64,000 nt of DNA from Kiloniella laminariae. GTDB lineage: Bacteria > Pseudomonadota > Alphaproteobacteria > Kiloniellales > Kiloniellaceae. This document shows, one piece after another, positions 48,095 through 60,101 of this stretch (position 1 is its first letter; the number at the start of each line of letters is the position of its first letter). Position numbers and translations under genes: made by a program. The notes beneath the pieces were generated by a model. The model saw nothing but the letters and a program-made list of their open reading frames with translations, was not told the origin of the DNA and searched no databases. Location of the stretch: contig NZ_JAPWGY010000006.1 in the NCBI RefSeq assembly GCF_027214005.1, positions 124,001-188,000 of the forward strand, written 5' to 3'.

Positions 48095-48212
48095 AAGACA
48101 AGAATAATGCTTCTGTTTTGTACGACTCCAACAAGACAAACTCGACAAAGCAGTACTAATTTTCAGTTTTCAACCACCCGAACCTGACCGCTCACTTTAG
48201 AAAGTGCATCCG

Positions 48213-49544
48213 ATGTCTCATGTGTTCCCCCGTCACACCAAAGCAAACTTACCAACCGCTGTATCCGGTGAGGGCTGTTATATCATCGACAGCAACGGCA
48301 AGCGTTATTTTGATGGCTCGGGTGGCGCTGCGGTTTCCTGTTTGGGGCATTCTGACCAAACCGTACGGCAGGCGATTAAAGATCAGGTGGATGAACTCGC
48401 CTTTGCCCACTCCGGGTTTTTCACCTCTGATCCTGCCGAAAAGCTTGCTGATTTGCTGATCGCCCATGCACCAGAAGGGATCGAAAGGGTTTATTTTGTC
48501 TCCGGAGGGTCCGAAGCGGTCGAGGCCGCCTTGAAGCTGGCCCGGCAATACCACCTTGAACGCGGCGATGACAAACGCAGCCATATCATCGCACGTTGGC
48601 AGAGTTATCATGGCAATACACTCGGAGCCCTCTCCGCTGGCGGTAACAGGTGGCGGCGCAAACCCTTTGAACCCTTGCTGGTTCCCATGACTCATATTGA
48701 TCCCTGCTATGCCTACCGCTATCAGGCGCAAGGGGAAAGCCTGGAAGACTATGCAATCAGGGCGGCAGACTTGCTCGAAGCCGAAATTCTGCGTGTCGGC
48801 CCCGAGAAGGTTGCCGCCTTTATCTGCGAACCTGTTGTCGGCGCCACCATGGGCGCGGTTACTGCTGAGCCCGGCTACCTGAAACGCATCCGCAAGATCT
48901 GTGACCAATACGGTGTATTGCTCATTCTGGATGAAGTCATGTGTGGCATGGGACGGACAGGTTCACTCTTTGCCTGTGATCAGGATGGCGTCTCTCCGGA
49001 TATTCTCTGCATCGCAAAAGGGCTTGGCGCAGGTTACCAACCGATCGGGGCCATGCTCTGCAGCGGAAAAGTCTACAAGGCCATTGAAGACGGATCCGGT
49101 TTCTTCCAGCACGGTCACACCTATATGGGACATCCTGTCGCCTGTGCAGCAGGCCTTGCTGTTATAACCGCCATGTTCGAGCGTAACCTGCTGGGCAAGG
49201 TACAAAAGCGTTCACTCCAGTTGATGACGGCCTTGACCAGTGCCTTTGGACAACATCCCTACATCGGCGATATTCGTGGCCGGGGCCTGTTCATCGGCCT
49301 GGAACTGGTCCGGGATCGGGAAAGTAAACACCCCTTCCCTTCCGACCTTGCCCTTCATGCCAAGGTCAAGAAAATTGCCTTTGCCAATGGTTTGATCTGT
49401 TACCCCATGTCAGGCACCATCGACGGGCAATCTGGCGATCACATCCTGCTTGCGCCCCCCTTTATCATCGAAGAAGAGCACATCGGCGAAATCGTCGACA
49501 AGCTGGCCAAAACCTTCGCCATGATTCCAGAACTGGAACACTAG
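48213..49544 (+). CDS. Class III PLP-dependent aminotransferase
   Basis: About 443 residues; the ATG at 48213 (MSHVFPRHTKANLP) is favoured over a GTG at 48204. Fold-type I aminotransferase: phosphate loop VSGGSEAVEAALKLAR, WQSYHGNTLGAL, LILDEVMCGMGRTGSLFA (Asp contacts PLP nitrogen) and the PLP Lys in CIAKGLGAGYQPIGAM. It resembles the omega-amino acid/YodT-like group. It is followed 2 bp later by a beta-keto acid cleavage enzyme, suggesting that it deaminates a beta-amino acid to a keto acid for cleavage. A taurine transaminase role feeding Xsc is a less favoured alternative. Confidence 0.9.
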   Translation: MSHVFPRHTKANLPTAVSGEGCYIIDSNGKRYFDGSGGAAVSCLGHSDQTVRQAIKDQVDELAFAHSGFFTSDPAEKLADLLIAHAPEGIERVYFVSGGSEAVEAALKLARQYHLERGDDKRSHIIARWQSYHGNTLGALSAGGNRWRRKPFEPLLVPMTHIDPCYAYRYQAQGESLEDYAIRAADLLEAEILRVGPEKVAAFICEPVVGATMGAVTAEPGYLKRIRKICDQYGVLLILDEVMCGMGRTGSLFACDQDGVSPDILCIAKGLGAGYQPIGAMLCSGKVYKAIEDGSGFFQHGHTYMGHPVACAAGLAVITAMFERNLLGKVQKRSLQLMTALTSAFGQHPYIGDIRGRGLFIGLELVRDRESKHPFPSDLALHAKVKKIAFANGLICYPMSGTIDGQSGDHILLAPPFIIEEEHIGEIVDKLAKTFAMIPELEH

Positions 49545-49546
49545 AC

Positions 49547-50386
49547 ATGTCCCCGACAATCATTATGGCTGCCCCGAACGGGGCTCGGAAAACCCAGGCA
49601 GATCATCCGCATCTGCCTGTAACAGTCGAGCAGATTATTACCGAAGCGCTGGCCTGCCAGAAAGCAGGAGCAGCCATGGCTCACTTGCATGTGCGGGATG
49701 CCCAACAACAGCATGTTCTGGACGCCGGGCTTTATCGGGAAGTCATTGCAGGCATAAACTACGAGGCTGGGTCCGATCTTCTGGTTCAGATCACCACAGA
49801 AGCAGTCGGGCGTTATGGACAACAGGCCCAGATCGACTGCGTCAAAGCCACCGAACCCGAAGCCGTCAGTGTTGCCCTCCGTGAAATGATGCCGGATGAT
49901 GGCGAAAGAAGCGGGTCAGGCTTTTATCACTGGGCCAATGAAGCCGGAATACATCTGCAGCATATCCTTTATGATCTCAGGGATTTGGAACGGTTTATCG
50001 AATTTGTCAGGCTCGGCCTGATCCCGGTGCAGACGCCTTCCCTGCTCTTTGTTCTGGGGCGTTACGCCAGCAACAATCTGGGAGAGCCGGAAGAACTCGA
50101 CCCTTTTACTGCTGCATTACAAAAACAAAAATCCTTTGCCCCTGGCCCTTGGTTTACCTGCGCCTTTGGCCACCTGGAAGCGGCCTGTATGACCAGAACC
50201 TTTCAACAGGGCGGGCACGCCCGCGTCGGTTTTGAAAACAACAGCAAGCTGCGCAATGGACAGGAAGCGGAAGCGACATCTGAAATCGTCGCTCAAACCC
50301 GCGATGAAATCCTCGCTCTGGGCAAAAAACCAGCTTCCGCCAAAGAAGCCCGGCAGTTGCTCGGCATTAGTTCTGGAAAGAGCTGA
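49547..50386 (+). CDS. Beta-keto acid cleavage enzyme (BKACE, 3-keto-5-aminohexanoate cleavage family)
   Basis: 279 residues, TIM-barrel BKACE (DUF849) family. The zinc ligands H-x-H are in AHLHVRDAQ. IIMAAPNGARK opens the first strand, VQTPSLLFVLGRY and the RVGFENN segment near the C-terminus are typical. Known reaction: condenses a beta-keto acid with acetyl-CoA to give acetoacetate and a new CoA ester. It starts 2 bp after the aminotransferase stop, so the two form one operon; substrates of the family range from 5-amino-3-oxohexanoate to dehydrocarnitine and others. Confidence 0.92.
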   Translation: MSPTIIMAAPNGARKTQADHPHLPVTVEQIITEALACQKAGAAMAHLHVRDAQQQHVLDAGLYREVIAGINYEAGSDLLVQITTEAVGRYGQQAQIDCVKATEPEAVSVALREMMPDDGERSGSGFYHWANEAGIHLQHILYDLRDLERFIEFVRLGLIPVQTPSLLFVLGRYASNNLGEPEELDPFTAALQKQKSFAPGPWFTCAFGHLEAACMTRTFQQGGHARVGFENNSKLRNGQEAEATSEIVAQTRDEILALGKKPASAKEARQLLGISSGKS

Positions 50387-54030: not shown

Positions 54031-55413
54031 CTAGCCGAGTTTGCTTGCCACTGACTGGATGGCATCGCGGGCGGCTTCGATGATCATATCAGCCTCGGCG
54101 CGTGTCATACAAAGTGGCGGGGCAAACCCGAGGATATCGCCCTGAGGCATGGCCCGGCCAATCACCTTGCTCCGTTCCAGCAGCGCGGCTGCAACCTGGG
54201 GACCAACCTTGAGCGCCGGGTCAAAGAACTCCCGGGTGTCGCGGTCTTTGACAAATTCAATCGCCGCCAGAATGCCTTCTCCTCGTACATCGCCAACGAT
54301 GGAAATATCATCCAGCGCCGCTTTGAGGCCCTGATTGAAATAGGTCCCGGTATCGCGAGCATTGTCTACCAGTTTCAGATCATCAATCAGCTTGAGGTTG
54401 GCAACACCAGCCGCAGCTCCGATCGGGTGGGCGGAATAGGTCCAGCCATGGCCGATCGGGCCAAGTTTATCCGTGCCTTCTTCCAGCACCTTCCAGACTT
54501 TATTCGAAACAATCGATCCGGACAACGGCGCATAGGCCGAGGTCAGACCCTTGGCAATGGTGATGATATCCGGCTCGATATCATAGTGGTCAGAACCGAA
54601 CATGCTGCCCAGACGACCAAACCCGGTCACGACCTCATCGGCGATCAACAGGATATCGTGTTTTTTCAGCACTGCCTGAATTGCTTTCCAGTACCCGGCG
54701 GGTGGCGGCACGATCCCGCCAGTCCCCAGAACCGGTTCGCCGATAAAGGCGGCGATGCTATCCGCGCCTTCACGGGCGATCAGCGCTTCGAGACTGTCAG
54801 CACACTGTTTGACAAAGTCGGCTTCGCTCTGACCTGTGTCGGCACGGCGGAAGTAATAGGGCGCATCAGTATGCACCACCTGTGACAGCGGCAGATCGAA
54901 CTTGTTGTGGAACAGCTCCAGCCCGGTCAGAGATCCCGTCATCAGGCCCGAGCCGTGATAACCACGCCAGCGCGAAATGATCTTTTTCTTTTTCGGACGA
55001 TCCAGCACGTTGTTGTAATACCAGACCAGCTTGATGTTGGTTTCATTGGCATCCGAACCGGACAGACCGAAGTAGACCTTCGACATGTTGGCTGGTGCCC
55101 GGTCGATTATCATCTTCGCCAGGGTGATCGATGCTTCGGTGCCGTGGCCGACATAGGAATGGTAATAGGCCAGTTCTTTTGCCTGCTTGGCGATGGCCTC
55201 TGCCACTTCCTGCCGACCATAGCCGATATTGACACAATAGAGCCCGGCAAAGGCATCCATCAGACGTGTGCCATCACGGTCCTCAATATAAAGCCCATCG
55301 CCGCCAGAAATAATCCGGTTCCCCAGATCCCCCCGGGCAAACTGGGCCAGATGAGTGGAAGGGTGAAAGAAGTTCTCGCGATCCCATTCGGCGAGTTGAT
55401 CATTTTTCAGCAT
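54031..55413 (-). CDS. doeD: DoeD-type class III aminotransferase (diaminobutyrate transaminase of ectoine catabolism)
   Basis: 460 residues, PLP class III aminotransferase. FGLSGSDANETNIKLV, RWRGYHGSG, LIADEVVTGFGRLGSMFG and PLP Lys in TIAKGLTSAYAPLSG are all present, as in the SpuC/putrescine-pyruvate-type subgroup. As the last gene of an operon with doeA, doeX and doeC it most likely converts L-2,4-diaminobutyrate to aspartate semialdehyde. Without that context it would be called a putrescine or GABA transaminase. It lies 77 bp after doeC. Confidence 0.85.
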   Translation of the reverse strand: MLKNDQLAEWDRENFFHPSTHLAQFARGDLGNRIISGGDGLYIEDRDGTRLMDAFAGLYCVNIGYGRQEVAEAIAKQAKELAYYHSYVGHGTEASITLAKMIIDRAPANMSKVYFGLSGSDANETNIKLVWYYNNVLDRPKKKKIISRWRGYHGSGLMTGSLTGLELFHNKFDLPLSQVVHTDAPYYFRRADTGQSEADFVKQCADSLEALIAREGADSIAAFIGEPVLGTGGIVPPPAGYWKAIQAVLKKHDILLIADEVVTGFGRLGSMFGSDHYDIEPDIITIAKGLTSAYAPLSGSIVSNKVWKVLEEGTDKLGPIGHGWTYSAHPIGAAAGVANLKLIDDLKLVDNARDTGTYFNQGLKAALDDISIVGDVRGEGILAAIEFVKDRDTREFFDPALKVGPQVAAALLERSKVIGRAMPQGDILGFAPPLCMTRAEADMIIEAARDAIQSVASKLG

Positions 55414-55490
55414 GGTTTTGTTCCTCGATTTCCGGGCCGCTGCCGGACCGTTAAATTTGTAGAAAGCTTAAGGTCTGCTTTTCAGATCTG

Positions 55491-56981
55491 TCACAGAAAA
55501 TTGCGACAGACATATTTGATTTCGGTAAAGGCCTCCATACCCTGACGTGCACCTTCGCGGCCAAGCCCTGACTGTTTCATCCCGCCAAAGGGGATGGGTG
55601 CGCCTGTCAACTTGGTTCGGTTGATCGCCACCATACCGTATTGCAACGCCCTGCTGGCCGTATAAACCCGTTTGGCATCCCGTGTGTGGACATAGGCCAC
55701 CAATCCGTATTCGCTGTCATTGGCCCGGGCAATAATATCCTCCCCGGTTTCAAAAGGGGTCAGACAAGCCACCGGACCAAAGGTTTCCTCAAAGAAAACC
55801 AGCGCCGAAGCAGGCACATCACCAAGAACCGTGGGCTGGAAAAACAACGGCCCGAGAGGATGACGGGAACCACCGGTGAGCAGAACCGCTCCGCGTTTGA
55901 GGGCATCGGCCACATGGGCTTCCTGTTTTTTTACCGCAGCCTCATTCATTAAGGGTCCGATATCAGGATCCTCCAGCCCCGGACCAACGCTCAGGGCTTT
56001 GGTCGCAGCTGTGAATTTTTGCACAAATTCATCGTATAGAGGGCGCTCGATAAAAATCCGGTTTGCCGCCAGGCAATCTTGACCAGAGGTGGCAAACTTC
56101 GCCGCGATGGCGCAAGTCACGGCGTGATCGATATCTGCATCACCGTAGACAATAAAGGGTGCATGCCCGCCGAGTTCCATCACCAGTCGTTTGATCGTTG
56201 GGGCAGACTGGGCATAGAGCAACCGCCCGATCTCGGTTGATCCGGTAAAGGATACCACCCGCACCCGGCTATCTGTCGTCCAGGGCTCAACGATTTCTGC
56301 TGGCTCGCCCGTCACCACGTTGAAAACTCCCGGCGGGAAGCCGGCGCGTTCGGCCAGTTCCGCCAACGCGGTGGCAGAAAAGGGGGTTTCCTTCGAAGGA
56401 TGCACCACACAGCTGCACCCTGCAGCAAGAGCAGCTGCCGCCTTGCGGGTGATCATCGCGTTGGGAAAGTTCCAGGGGGTAACCAGTGCAGCCACACCAC
56501 AGGGCTCACGCCAGACCTCGACCTCGCCACCCGGCATATGTGACGTCACGCTTTCAATATTCGGGCGTTTGGCTTCTTCAGCATAGAATTCAATAAAATC
56601 GGCAGAATAGTCGATCTCACCCCGGGCTTCTGACAGAGGTTTTCCCTGTTCCAGCGTCATAATCAGCGCCAGATCATCCCGATGCTGTTTCAGTAACTCG
56701 AACCAGCGCCGCAAAATCGCCGAGCGTTCCTGCGGCAGACGTGCTGCCCAGTCAGGGAAAGCGGCCTGAGCGGCATCCACCGCCCGTTTGCTTTCTTCAC
56801 CGGACATCTTTGGGACAGCCCCAAGCATTTCCTGTGTTGCAGGATCTGTCACCAGAACAGTGCTGCCGGAACCAGCAGCACACCATTCACCGTTTATATA
56901 GCTGAATTCCCTGAAAAGCCGGGGATCATTCAAATCCCCAAAGGCCGATGACCGGCTTTTCTCTTTAACTGTCTGCTGCAT
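55491..56981 (-). CDS. doeC: DoeC-type aldehyde dehydrogenase (aspartate-semialdehyde/succinate-semialdehyde dehydrogenase family)
   Basis: 496 residues; the ATG at 56981 follows AGGAG at 8 nt, a longer frame to 57038 lacks this. GabD-like ALDH: PWNFP at the cofactor site, FTGSTEIG, general base Glu in MELGGHAP and catalytic Cys in SGQDCLAANR, ending PFGGMKQSGLGREGARQG. GabD homologues in ectoine clusters oxidise aspartate semialdehyde to aspartate; a succinate-semialdehyde dehydrogenase role is the alternative by sequence alone. It lies between doeX and doeD. Confidence 0.88.
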   Translation of the reverse strand: MQQTVKEKSRSSAFGDLNDPRLFREFSYINGEWCAAGSGSTVLVTDPATQEMLGAVPKMSGEESKRAVDAAQAAFPDWAARLPQERSAILRRWFELLKQHRDDLALIMTLEQGKPLSEARGEIDYSADFIEFYAEEAKRPNIESVTSHMPGGEVEVWREPCGVAALVTPWNFPNAMITRKAAAALAAGCSCVVHPSKETPFSATALAELAERAGFPPGVFNVVTGEPAEIVEPWTTDSRVRVVSFTGSTEIGRLLYAQSAPTIKRLVMELGGHAPFIVYGDADIDHAVTCAIAAKFATSGQDCLAANRIFIERPLYDEFVQKFTAATKALSVGPGLEDPDIGPLMNEAAVKKQEAHVADALKRGAVLLTGGSRHPLGPLFFQPTVLGDVPASALVFFEETFGPVACLTPFETGEDIIARANDSEYGLVAYVHTRDAKRVYTASRALQYGMVAINRTKLTGAPIPFGGMKQSGLGREGARQGMEAFTEIKYVCRNFL

Positions 56982-57136
56982 GGCTCTTGCTCCTGTTTGA
57001 TGAGGACCATCATGAGCGACTTCCCGGCGAAGGTGCATCTAAAGACAGGAGGGAATTAAGAGAAGACCACTGCTATTCTGCAATGAAGAGGAAACTTCCT
57101 CTTTAGCAAGAGCCGCTGTCCAGAAAGGACACAACT

Positions 57137-57637
57137 CTAGTCTGCAAGGTCGGCTGTAAGCAGGTCCAGCGGCAGGGCTGTCTGGTGCTTGACGGGTTTT
57201 GTCACCACATAGGAAAAATACCGCCGCAGTCCGATCTTGGCCTCAAGCAAACGATCGACCAGACGCTGATAACTGTCGATATCCCGGGTCAGAATGCGCA
57301 AGACATAATCAATGCCACCACCGACAGCCCAGCATTCCACGATCTCCGGGTAATCAGCCATCGCCGCCTCGAAACGATCAAAATCCTCTGCCTTGTGGCT
57401 GTCGAGTTCCGCTTCCATAAAGACGATTGTAACGGGTGAGAATGCCTTGAGCGACAGCCGGGCTTCATAGCTTTCGATCAACCCTGCCTGTTCCAGACGT
57501 TTCAACCTTTCCCAGCAGGGCGTAGGAGAAAGATTAACCCGCTCGGCCAGTGCGGCTTTGGTGATCCGGCCCTCGGTCTGGAGGATATTGAGAATCGCGA
57601 GATCGCGATCATCCAGTCGAAGTCCTGCTATCTGCAT
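57137..57637 (-). CDS. doeX: Lrp/AsnC family regulator DoeX of the ectoine operon
   Basis: 166 residues. HTH: LDDRDLAILNILQTEGRITKAALAERVNLSPTPCWERLKRLE. The RAM domain (about 65-150) has YPEIVECWAVGGGIDYVLRI. The AsnC/Lrp protein placed inside an ectoine degradation cluster is DoeX/AsnC, reported to respond to ectoine-derived intermediates. The 155-bp gap before doeC could hold an internal promoter. Confidence 0.86.
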   Translation of the reverse strand: MQIAGLRLDDRDLAILNILQTEGRITKAALAERVNLSPTPCWERLKRLEQAGLIESYEARLSLKAFSPVTIVFMEAELDSHKAEDFDRFEAAMADYPEIVECWAVGGGIDYVLRILTRDIDSYQRLVDRLLEAKIGLRRYFSYVVTKPVKHQTALPLDLLTADLAD

Positions 57638-57725
57638 GATTTTACCAGACTGTTTCTTGGAAGTGGTCCCTTACTTAACGGGGTTCTCCCAATAATGACA
57701 AGCCCCCAAACAGCCCCAGACATCA

Positions 57726-58889
57726 TCAATTTGATTGATGTACGGCGAGATCTGCCAGAAATGCCAGGCAGCGCTTGAGCTCAGAAATCTCGATATACTC
57801 ATCCGGCTTGTGTGCCTGATCAATCGAACCCGGTCCAAAAACCACCGTAGAGATACCGACACGCTCGAAGTGTCCGGCATCCGTTCCGAAGGAAACAACC
57901 TCGCTTGTATTGCTCCCGGTGATTTTTCGGATCAGATTGACAGCAGGAGAATCCTCGCTGGCCAGTAATGGCGGTACATCCGCAAGCAGCTTGGTCCGGA
58001 TCTCTGCCTCGGGGTAGACTTCTCGCATTTTCGGAACCAGTACCGTTTCTGCATAGTCTTTGATCCGATCAAGAATCGCATAGCCGTCGTCTCCGGGGAT
58101 CGGACGGATTTCCCAGTTGATCACACAGCTGCCCGCCGTAATATTTGTCGCAATCCCGCCCTCGATCCGGCCGATATTACAGGTCGAATAGGGCGGTTCA
58201 AAAGGTGAATCCTGAACGGGTTTTGCCGCCAATTCAGCCTTGATATCCAGAATTTTGTCGATATAGAGAGTGGCGTATTCTATCGCGTTCACCCCCTTGC
58301 CCGGATCCGAGGCATGAACCTCGAAACCATCAAATTCGGTCTGGATCTCGAAACCTGCCTTGTGCCCGGTAACCAGTCGCATCCCGGTCGGCTCTCCCAC
58401 AATGGCAATGGCAGGTGTCATTGACTTGGACATTATGTCTTCGGCAAGAACAGGGGCCCCGAAACCACCGGTTTCCTCGTCATAACAAAATGATACATGG
58501 ATCGGACGTTTTAGATCCTGTTTTTTGAACTCTGGCACCATTGCCAGACTGCAGGCGAGGAAGCCTTTCATATCCACCGCACCACGTCCATAAAGCCTCC
58601 CCTGCTTTTCCAGCAAGGTGAAAGGATCGGCACTCCATTCCTGACCTCTGGTTGGCACCACATCCGTATGACCATTGAGCACCACCCCCCCATCGACTTC
58701 CGGGCCTATGGTGGCATAGAGATTAGCCCGTAACCCGGTTTCGTCATAACTGAGAGACGAGGCTACTCCCTGCTGCTCCAGGTACTCCCTGATATAGCTG
58801 ACCATAGCCAGATTTGACAAACCTGACAGGCTTTCAAAAGCGACCAGTTTGCCCAAGATTTCCTTGGTGAGGTTCAGTGTATCCGACAT
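57726..58889 (-). CDS. M20-family (ArgE-like) deacetylase in the DoeB position of the ectoine operon
   Basis: 387 residues, acetylornithine deacetylase-like metallopeptidase. Zinc ligands: H74 (LNGHTDVVP), D106 (GRGAVDMKG), catalytic E138/E139 (CYDEETGG), E166 (VGEPTG) and a His in QAHKPDEY. The dimerisation lid lies at about 180-290. It lies 18 bp downstream of doeA. Known DoeB/EutE enzymes belong to the AstE/aspartoacylase family; here an M20A enzyme takes the place. Its expected reaction is deacetylation of N2-acetyl-L-2,4-diaminobutyrate, one carbon shorter than acetylornithine. A true arginine-biosynthetic ArgE is the alternative. Confidence 0.85.
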   Translation of the reverse strand: MSDTLNLTKEILGKLVAFESLSGLSNLAMVSYIREYLEQQGVASSLSYDETGLRANLYATIGPEVDGGVVLNGHTDVVPTRGQEWSADPFTLLEKQGRLYGRGAVDMKGFLACSLAMVPEFKKQDLKRPIHVSFCYDEETGGFGAPVLAEDIMSKSMTPAIAIVGEPTGMRLVTGHKAGFEIQTEFDGFEVHASDPGKGVNAIEYATLYIDKILDIKAELAAKPVQDSPFEPPYSTCNIGRIEGGIATNITAGSCVINWEIRPIPGDDGYAILDRIKDYAETVLVPKMREVYPEAEIRTKLLADVPPLLASEDSPAVNLIRKITGSNTSEVVSFGTDAGHFERVGISTVVFGPGSIDQAHKPDEYIEISELKRCLAFLADLAVHQSN

Positions 58890-58907
58890 AAAAACCCGTC
58901 TTGTATC

Positions 58908-60101
58908 TTAGGAAATAACAAACAGTTCACGCGGGACAGAAGACAGGCATTCCGGCCCCTTGTCACCAATCACAATACTTTCAGTGATCTCCAGTCCCCA
59001 GTCTTCAAGCCACAGACCTGTCATGAAGTGAAAGGTCATTCCCGGCTCCAAAACCGTGCGATCCCCCTTGCGCAGACTCATGGTGTGTTCACCCCAGTCC
59101 GGGGGATAGGACAAACCGATGGAATAACCGGTGCGACTGTCCTTGATGATGCCATGCTTTTTCAGAACCGCGAAGAAGCTATTGGCAATATCCTCACAAA
59201 AATTTCCCACCCGGGCCTGTTCAAGTCCGGCTTCCATCCCCTCCAGCACCGCCTTTTCTGCATCGAGGAATTTCTGCTCCGGCTTGCCGAGAAACACTGT
59301 GCGCGACAGCGGACAGTGATAGCGTTTGTAACAGCCCGCGATTTCAAAAAAAGTCCCCTCCCCAGACCGCATGGGACGATCATCCCAGGTCAGATGGGAC
59401 GCCGAGGCATCCGCGCCAGAAGGCAGCAACGGTACAATGGCGGGATAATCCCCGCCCGCGCCTTCGACACCGCGCAAGCCTGCATCATAGATGGCAGCGA
59501 CCAGTTCATTTTTGCGCAGGCCGGGTTTGACAGTTTCGCGGATACGCTGGTGCATCACCTCAACAATCTTGCCCGCCTTGCGCATATAGTCCAGCTCTTG
59601 CGGGGACTTTACCACCCGCTGCCAGTTCACCAGATTGGTCGTGTCCTTGAAAGTAACGTTTGGTAAATGACGCACCAGAGACGCATAGGCCGCAGCAGAG
59701 AAATAATAGTTGTCCATCTCCACCCCGATAGAGGCTTTTCCAAATCCCTTGGCATCAAGGATTGACGCCAACAGATCCATCGGGTGGCGTTCGGTGGACT
59801 GAACATAGTGATCCGCATAGCCGATGATATTGTCATGGGACAGATAACAGGTGCGCTTGGCCCCGTTAGCGTCCATCGAACGCCCAAACCAGATCGGCTG
59901 CCCCTCTCCGGTGACAATCACACACTGGTGCACATAAAAGGACCAGCCGTCATAACCCGTCAGCCAGGCCATGTTTGAAGGATCTGTCACAACCAGACAG
60001 TCCACCCCTGCGGATTGCATTGCCCGTCGTGTCTTCGCCAGACGCACATCATATTCTGAAAGATCGAAACACAACTCTATTCCTGCGGGATTCAACGCCA
60101 T
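58908..60101 (-). CDS. doeA: Ectoine hydrolase DoeA (EutD)
   Basis: 397 residues; the ATG at 60101 follows AAGGAA at 7 nt. M24 (creatinase/prolidase) fold with the ectoine-hydrolase-typical run TDPSNMAWLTGYDGWSFYVH and SMDANGAKRT...LSHDNIIGY. The usual M24 metal ligands are not conserved: the strand reads FFEIAGCYKRYHCPLSRT, with Glu253 and no second Asp. That fits the non-metal mechanism described for EutD. It opens the ectoine ring to N-acetyl-diaminobutyrate. First gene of the operon doeA-M20-doeX-doeC-doeD. Confidence 0.93.
   Translation of the reverse strand: MALNPAGIELCFDLSEYDVRLAKTRRAMQSAGVDCLVVTDPSNMAWLTGYDGWSFYVHQCVIVTGEGQPIWFGRSMDANGAKRTCYLSHDNIIGYADHYVQSTERHPMDLLASILDAKGFGKASIGVEMDNYYFSAAAYASLVRHLPNVTFKDTTNLVNWQRVVKSPQELDYMRKAGKIVEVMHQRIRETVKPGLRKNELVAAIYDAGLRGVEGAGGDYPAIVPLLPSGADASASHLTWDDRPMRSGEGTFFEIAGCYKRYHCPLSRTVFLGKPEQKFLDAEKAVLEGMEAGLEQARVGNFCEDIANSFFAVLKKHGIIKDSRTGYSIGLSYPPDWGEHTMSLRKGDRTVLEPGMTFHFMTGLWLEDWGLEITESIVIGDKGPECLSSVPRELFVIS

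Follow-up and report, generated by a model that had tools for sequence, protein, structure and literature searches.

An ArgE-like M20A protein as the probable replacement of EutE/DoeB in an ectoine degradation operon of Kiloniella laminariae

As outlined in PMC3187862, H. elongata converts ectoine to aspartate with DoeA, DoeB, DoeD and DoeC. The deacetylase of the pathway, EutE/DoeB (TIGR02994), is of the AstE/aspartoacylase type and is encoded in the slot after doeA. EutD and EutE have been described as acting as a hydrolase-deacetylase bimodule, for which a stable complex was reportedly not seen (PMC8739950). A second deacetylase, DoeB2 (NF038260), is an M20D amidohydrolase. In the gammaproteobacterial-type cluster of genome G599 (locus L192), doeB2 is followed, in this order, by doeD (diaminobutyrate transaminase), doeA_2 and an aldehyde-dehydrogenase-like ORF recognized by eye. 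The doeB of Methylotuvimicrobium alcaliphilum is reported to share 22% identity with H. elongata DoeB (PMC7192451), and from this value and the gene order we infer that it belongs to the DoeB2 family. In PMC13188858, an abgB-type amidohydrolase is described from putative ectoine clusters of Bacillota. The gene name argE is reported from GABA regulons (PMC5320631), and the accessible portion of PMC10203224 mentions no argE gene. Among open-licence papers, we found no published report of an ArgE-like replacement in ectoine degradation.

The window, i.e., the whole stretch of 64,000 nucleotides of K. laminariae DNA that was analysed, carries on its minus strand, between positions 54031 and 60101, the genes doeA, M20, doeX, doeC and doeD, in the order of a doe operon:

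58908..60101, minus strand: doeA/eutD, ectoine hydrolase (M24), start ATG at 60101; TIGR02993, 745 bits (cut-off 613)
57726..58889, minus strand: ArgE-like M20A protein, proposed N2-acetyl-L-2,4-diaminobutyrate (ADABA) deacetylase; PF01546/PF07687, with NF005710 and TIGR01892 above cut-off
58347..58349, minus strand: codon (GAG) for Glu181, marker of doeA-associated M20s, from residue comparison across aligned M20s
57137..57637, minus strand: doeX/asnC, Lrp/AsnC-family regulator; PF13412 and PF01037, position kept in the genomes of the genus
55491..57038, minus strand: doeC/ssd, aldehyde dehydrogenase, predicted to oxidize aspartate semialdehyde; PF00171, 522 bits
54031..55413, minus strand: doeD/atf, class III aminotransferase, predicted to convert DABA to aspartate semialdehyde; PF00202, and PRK07482 (NF005684), 836 bits (cut-off 687)

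The preliminary description had recognized doeA, doeX, doeC and doeD in order around a deacetylase gene, and both the profile matches and the synteny within the genus bear this out. The M20 ORF encodes 387 amino acids and starts 18 bp 3' of doeA; eutE/doeB is absent from the cluster. DoeC was named by position and similarity. Its top NCBIfam matches are succinate-semialdehyde dehydrogenase models, all below their cut-offs, and it is 62–72% identical to the copies in the named doeA-M20 clusters L051, L053 and L056. DoeD is 73–77% identical to the copies in ten named doeA-M20 clusters.

We consider it very likely that this operon turns ectoine into aspartate and that its ArgE-like M20A protein, with the reaction and substrate preference predicted for it here, is a non-orthologous replacement of EutE/DoeB. 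The basis for this reading is the gene order, an exchange in situ, the lack of any EutE found, mutual exclusion in the searched genomes, phylogeny and the Glu181 marker. DoeA would open ectoine to ADABA, and the acetyl group would be stripped by M20 metal-dependent hydrolysis, carried out by the ArgE-like protein and not by an AstE-type EutE/DoeB. DoeD would transaminate DABA to aspartate semialdehyde, which DoeC would oxidize to aspartate, and DoeX is probably the regulator of the operon. The M20 would represent a scaffold of the acetylornithine-deacetylase type that has turned to a substrate shorter by one CH2, and by analogy the chemistry of ArgE on N2-acetylornithine fits N2-acetyl-DABA. 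It belongs to a widespread doeA-associated group marked by Glu181.

The protein has the two domains of the ArgE/M20A scaffold, Peptidase_M20 (PF01546) and M20_dimer (PF07687). It scores 460 bits against PRK07522 (NF005710, cut-off 412) and 384 bits against the acetylornithine-deacetylase equivalog model TIGR01892 (AcOrn-deacetyl, cut-off 298), and acetylornithine may therefore be accepted. TIGR01892 is also passed by a doeA-adjacent M20 from another genome, G407 (357 bits), so that the model is unable to separate a biosynthetic from a doeA-linked role. His74, Asp76, Asp106, Glu138, Glu139, Glu166 and His360, which we take to be the metal and catalytic residues of M20, are invariant in alignments of 8, 23 and 45 rows. 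The solved fold nearest to the AlphaFold (AF2) model of the protein (pLDDT 96) is that of E. coli ArgE (8uw6; TM 0.83, 32% identity). ArgE (TIGR01892; E. coli 7rsf/8uw6) is thus similar in fold, in the M20 motif residues and in its chemistry on N2-acetyl diamino acids. It differs in having Ser at the position of Glu181, whereas the window M20 has doeA as its partner and a host with ArgJ. The model scores and the nearest structure would suit an ordinary biosynthetic or salvage ArgE that merely sits in the doe operon. Against this, ArgJ (TIGR00120) is present in the same genome (383 bits, cut-off 298), so that a biosynthetic ArgE is unnecessary for the supply of ornithine, and the slot would otherwise be without a deacetylase. 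Together with the recurrence and the tree described below, this makes an ordinary ArgE very improbable.

EutE/DoeB, by inference, carries out the same reaction from the same slot after doeA, but is unrelated to the window M20 by sequence. BLASTP of the M20 against an annotated plasmid-borne EutE gave no similarity (best E 0.14), which, with the Pfam and NCBIfam matches, upholds the earlier assignment of the deacetylase as an M20A relative of ArgE and not an AstE-type DoeB/EutE. A second DoeB/EutE elsewhere in the genome was also looked for. The best matches to TIGR02994 scored 80 and 20 bits, far from the cut-off of 402.7, and neither was the window M20. Similarly, no EutE above cut-off was found in seven other genomes of the genus. 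The DoeB2 model NF038260 had three matches in the genome, the best at 361 bits and below the cut-off of 550.

Since DoeB2 is likewise an M20 enzyme, named as an ADABA deacetylase, the window M20 might be taken for a member of that family. This assignment was rejected, and we regard it as almost inconceivable: BLASTP against a DoeB2 gave no similarity (best E 0.74), and the three NF038260 matches in the genome do not include the window protein. DoeB2 also goes with DoeA_2, in a different gene order (L192), while the window DoeA is of the canonical type (745 bits, versus 203 for DoeA_2). NF038260 was searched in 37 genomes and exceeded its cut-off in one, the positive control G599. The abgB-type system resembles the window operon in having a putative amidohydrolase in a cluster without eutE. 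It differs in being Gram-positive and in its synteny; it is tentative according to its authors, and we liken it from the description in PMC13188858. The replacement proposed in the preliminary description therefore stands as far as the ArgE-like exchange is concerned, but an M20 stand-in for DoeB is not wholly new, given DoeB2 (NF038260).

Other proteins of the genome might deacetylate ADABA, leaving to the operon M20 a by-product, for instance the gamma-acetyl isomer or a hydroxylated derivative. Three such proteins exist: the M20D protein that gave the 361-bit match, an M20A paralogue (G000:C22:406514-407650) that lacks Glu181 and is 42% identical to the window M20 (both on contig C22 of this genome, G000), and the 80-bit AstE-like protein (L043). 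H. elongata DoeA in E. coli is also reported to have yielded both acetyl isomers (PMC3187862). The neighbours of these genes, named by eye from the ORFs, are not ectoine genes, however: the M20D gene lies with the M20A paralogue next to a peptide-type ABC transporter, and the AstE-like gene adjoins a RimK-like gene. Nor were eutB or eutC seen within the 64-kb window. Division of labour of this kind is therefore very doubtful, and we retain deacetylation of ADABA by the operon M20 as the preferred reading. The side-by-side arrangement of M20D amidohydrolase and M20A ArgE-like genes with the adjoining transporter (L042:8292-10671) has counterparts in Yoonia, Loktanella and Roseobacter CCS2 loci, where M20D and M20A genes lie near each other. 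The ectoine synthase profile PF06339 had no match in the window's genome, nor did it match in the controls.

DoeA exceeded the cut-off in 16 of the 23 genomes searched from the window's family. Denitrobaculum tricleocarpae appears to be a member of this family, since the DoeA match in G832, the genome with locus L115, agrees in coordinates and score with that in G004, one of the 23. In the window's genus, eight genomes (its own included) have such a DoeA, and doeA-M20-doeX is found in seven of them; in the eighth (G012), the contig stops at doeA. A ninth genome of the genus, G010, is 77% complete and has no DoeA above cut-off. In the two sister genera, by contrast, doeA is followed by eutE in all eight genomes with DoeA above cut-off. 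The exchange of EutE for M20 thus happened in situ, in the same operon slot. The M20s of the doeA-M20-doeX clusters are 70–92% identical across the genus, and conservation of the arrangement shows that it is due neither to chance nor to a frame artefact. One congener has a second DoeA, 57% identical (L044:9572-10759, G007:C35), with divergent eutC and eutB and an Ehu-like ABC transporter. No deacetylase adjoins this gene, and its product may therefore need the M20 encoded in the first operon.

The search for EutE (TIGR02994) was extended to 49 genomes, namely the eight of the genus, 33 reached via M20 loci and eight sister-genus controls. EutE exceeded the cut-off in none of the 41 genomes of doeA-M20 type (8 genus + 33), as opposed to all eight controls. 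This cut-off is strict, and a candidate EutE adjoining doeA in G391 scores only 377.5 bits. AstE-family proteins scoring 202–288 bits, below the cut-off, were present in 10 of the 33 genomes reached via M20 loci, and no doeA was found within 1.5 kb of their genes. The AstE-family gene of G046 (288 bits) has EutB-like (36%) and EhuB-like (33%) stretches as neighbours, and a protein of this type could share ADABA deacetylation there.

The pairing of doeA with an ArgE-like M20 recurs in many Alphaproteobacteria and is not an isolated case. The top-ranked plasmid relative, from Mesorhizobium sp. 131-2-5, lies 128 bp 3' of doeA and is annotated argE; doeA was found in this one of the three plasmid regions around M20 matches, and not in L039 or L040. 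A scan of named genomes with eight doeA-linked M20s as queries gave 589 confirmed stretches, of which the best 80 were analysed. A same-strand doeA neighbours the M20 in 24 of the 80, within 400 bp in 23 cases and at ≈0.5 kb in one (L072); in L048, the adjoining doeA stands downstream of M20. Nitratireductor (N. luteus, for example), Pelagibacterium, Falsiruegeria, Phaeobacter, Thioclava and Mesorhizobium are among the genera represented. Three of the clusters (L051, L053 and L056) also contain eutB, eutC, doeX and doeC, with no eutE in the stretch examined. All doeA-adjacent loci fall in the two doeA-linked groups of the tree described below, and none of the 44 loci (of the best 80) outside these groups adjoins doeA. 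The 12 non-adjacent loci inside the groups, and G262, all have DoeA elsewhere in the genome (13/13, E ≤ 1e-90; the match in G798 has an internal stop), versus 15 of the 44 genomes of the other M20s (Fisher p = 1.5e-5, ignoring relatedness).

We also surveyed 385 genomes of the class, with at most 4–5 candidates scored per genome. DoeA was found in 43 of these (E ≤ 1e-140). By comparing the genome lists by hand, EutE (E ≤ 1e-90) was assigned to 21 of the 43, and an M20 with Glu181 was read in 10 (G000, G008, G162, G172, G209, G277, G351, G385, G407 and G433), with zero overlap between the two sets. In the remaining 12, these searches found no EutE, and no Glu181 M20 among those checked, so that DoeA alone predicts neither partner. 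Among all 385 genomes, EutE (E ≤ 1e-90) was present in 0 of the 14 in which a Glu181 M20 was read. Adjacent doeA-M20 pairs occur in at least nine of the 385, including G268, G357 and G434, whose DoeAs are divergent (39–42% identity). That the pairing recurs across families, and was never found together with EutE, also weighs against an ordinary ArgE. In six further loci (L170, L172, L173, L174, L176 and L181), DoeA scores 604–685 bits, with no EutE or M20 within 1.5 kb on either side; five of these DoeAs exceed the cut-off and that of L181 (604 bits) falls just under it.

The M20 tree comprised 95 rows, with E. coli ArgE as the last. All doeA-linked M20s (31 rows by the 400-bp rule) sit in two groups. 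The first consists of the window's genus and three MAG sequences and is weakly joined at its base (83/89); the second contains 34 rows from Rhodobacterales, Hyphomicrobiales and SAR11-type genomes (100/99). Fifty other M20s form a supported group of their own (100/99) with no doeA link. A phylogeny of the M20 had been suggested as a check, and it places the window protein with the doeA-linked M20s and apart from the 42% identical ArgE-like paralogue of the same genome; the separation of doeA-linked M20s from the others is a further point against an ordinary ArgE. A common origin of all doeA-linked M20s is possible, as a single clade is not rejected (p-AU = 0.43), although the two groups are joined with weak support.

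Position 181 (window numbering) lies just after the HKG motif. Glu is found there in all 44 rows of the doeA-associated groups and in none of the 51 other rows, two of which have Asp (L002 and L042 among the 51 are one protein). Since the position was chosen on the rows of the tree, it was re-tested on other sequences, comprising 21 loci (G407 and 20 of the top scores of the class survey). Glu is present in all seven M20s that adjoin doeA. Because L205 is nearly the same protein as tree row L063 (99.5% identity), the other six are counted as new (6/6), these being ≤71% identical to any row of the tree. Of the non-adjacent M20s, 5 of 14 have Glu and the other nine do not; four of the five genomes have DoeA at E ≤ 1e-140, and G262 just misses this level. 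Glu181 was absent from the M20s of 13 of the 21 genomes with DoeA and EutE (0/13, one each) and from seven proteins of six of the 12 genomes with neither partner (0/7). Related proteins are not independent, and with a single clade compatible with the data, shared ancestry alone could explain the pattern; we thus take Glu181 as a marker only. In the binding of ADABA, it may touch the amino side chain, which is shorter than that of acetylornithine. Two further candidate markers were rejected: P196 is also present in 9 of the 51 other rows, and F334 in 12 of 51, while the doeA-adjacent M20 of G407 has Tyr at 334.

The DoeA tree (50 rows) carries a program warning of long branches. In it, the window DoeA groups with EutE-linked DoeAs in a set of 15 rows (84/94) that includes Rhizobium, Chelatococcus and sister-genus proteins as well as the M20-linked DoeA of the Mesorhizobium plasmid. 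Most remaining M20-linked DoeAs form a separate set of 19 rows (100/99). With the neither-partner rows removed, the tree requires five changes between M20 and EutE, and for the EutE label a minimum of two changes follows from the well-supported branches by themselves. The deacetylase beside DoeA was thus probably exchanged more than once, and either direction is possible.

Taken with the exchange in situ and the exclusion of EutE, the trees support the non-orthologous replacement that had been proposed from the window alone. The best reading is that the doeA-linked M20s are a third, separately recruited class of putative ADABA deacetylases, concealed by the name argE. A bolder version, in which an ArgE-derived ‘DoeB3’ with Glu181 arose as a third independent ADABA deacetylase, replaced EutE more than once, re-evolved the coupling with DoeA and uses Glu181 to read the side chain, is put forward tentatively, and we think it rather less probable than its negation. 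Because the genes are named argE and the genomes seemingly lack eutE, surveys keyed to EutE miss the doeA-M20 type. A 2026 survey that, by its section 8, focused on genomes encoding EutD, EutE and EutB (PMC13188858) would pass over such genomes. If the replacement is real, ectoine use in Alphaproteobacteria would be wider than counts of EutE imply and might extend to SAR11-type genomes. Related DoeAs beside two unrelated deacetylases also offer a natural test of EutE-specific coupling to DoeA.

Glu181-type M20s with DoeA some kb away were seen in SAR11-type (Pelagibacteraceae) or similar genomes of 0.8–1.3 Mb (L062, L071, L204 and L206), hinting at ectoine use in that group. In G407 (1.6 Mb, 86% complete, 5% contamination), doeA is directly followed by a divergent M20 (L179 / L197:7400-8569), which is 48% identical to that of Mesorhizobium and has Glu181. 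In the window itself, at 48204–50386, a PRK07483-type aminotransferase gene (752 bits, cut-off 485) is followed 2 bp on by a gene whose product is distantly similar to 3-keto-5-aminohexanoate cleavage enzyme (109 bits, cut-off 382).
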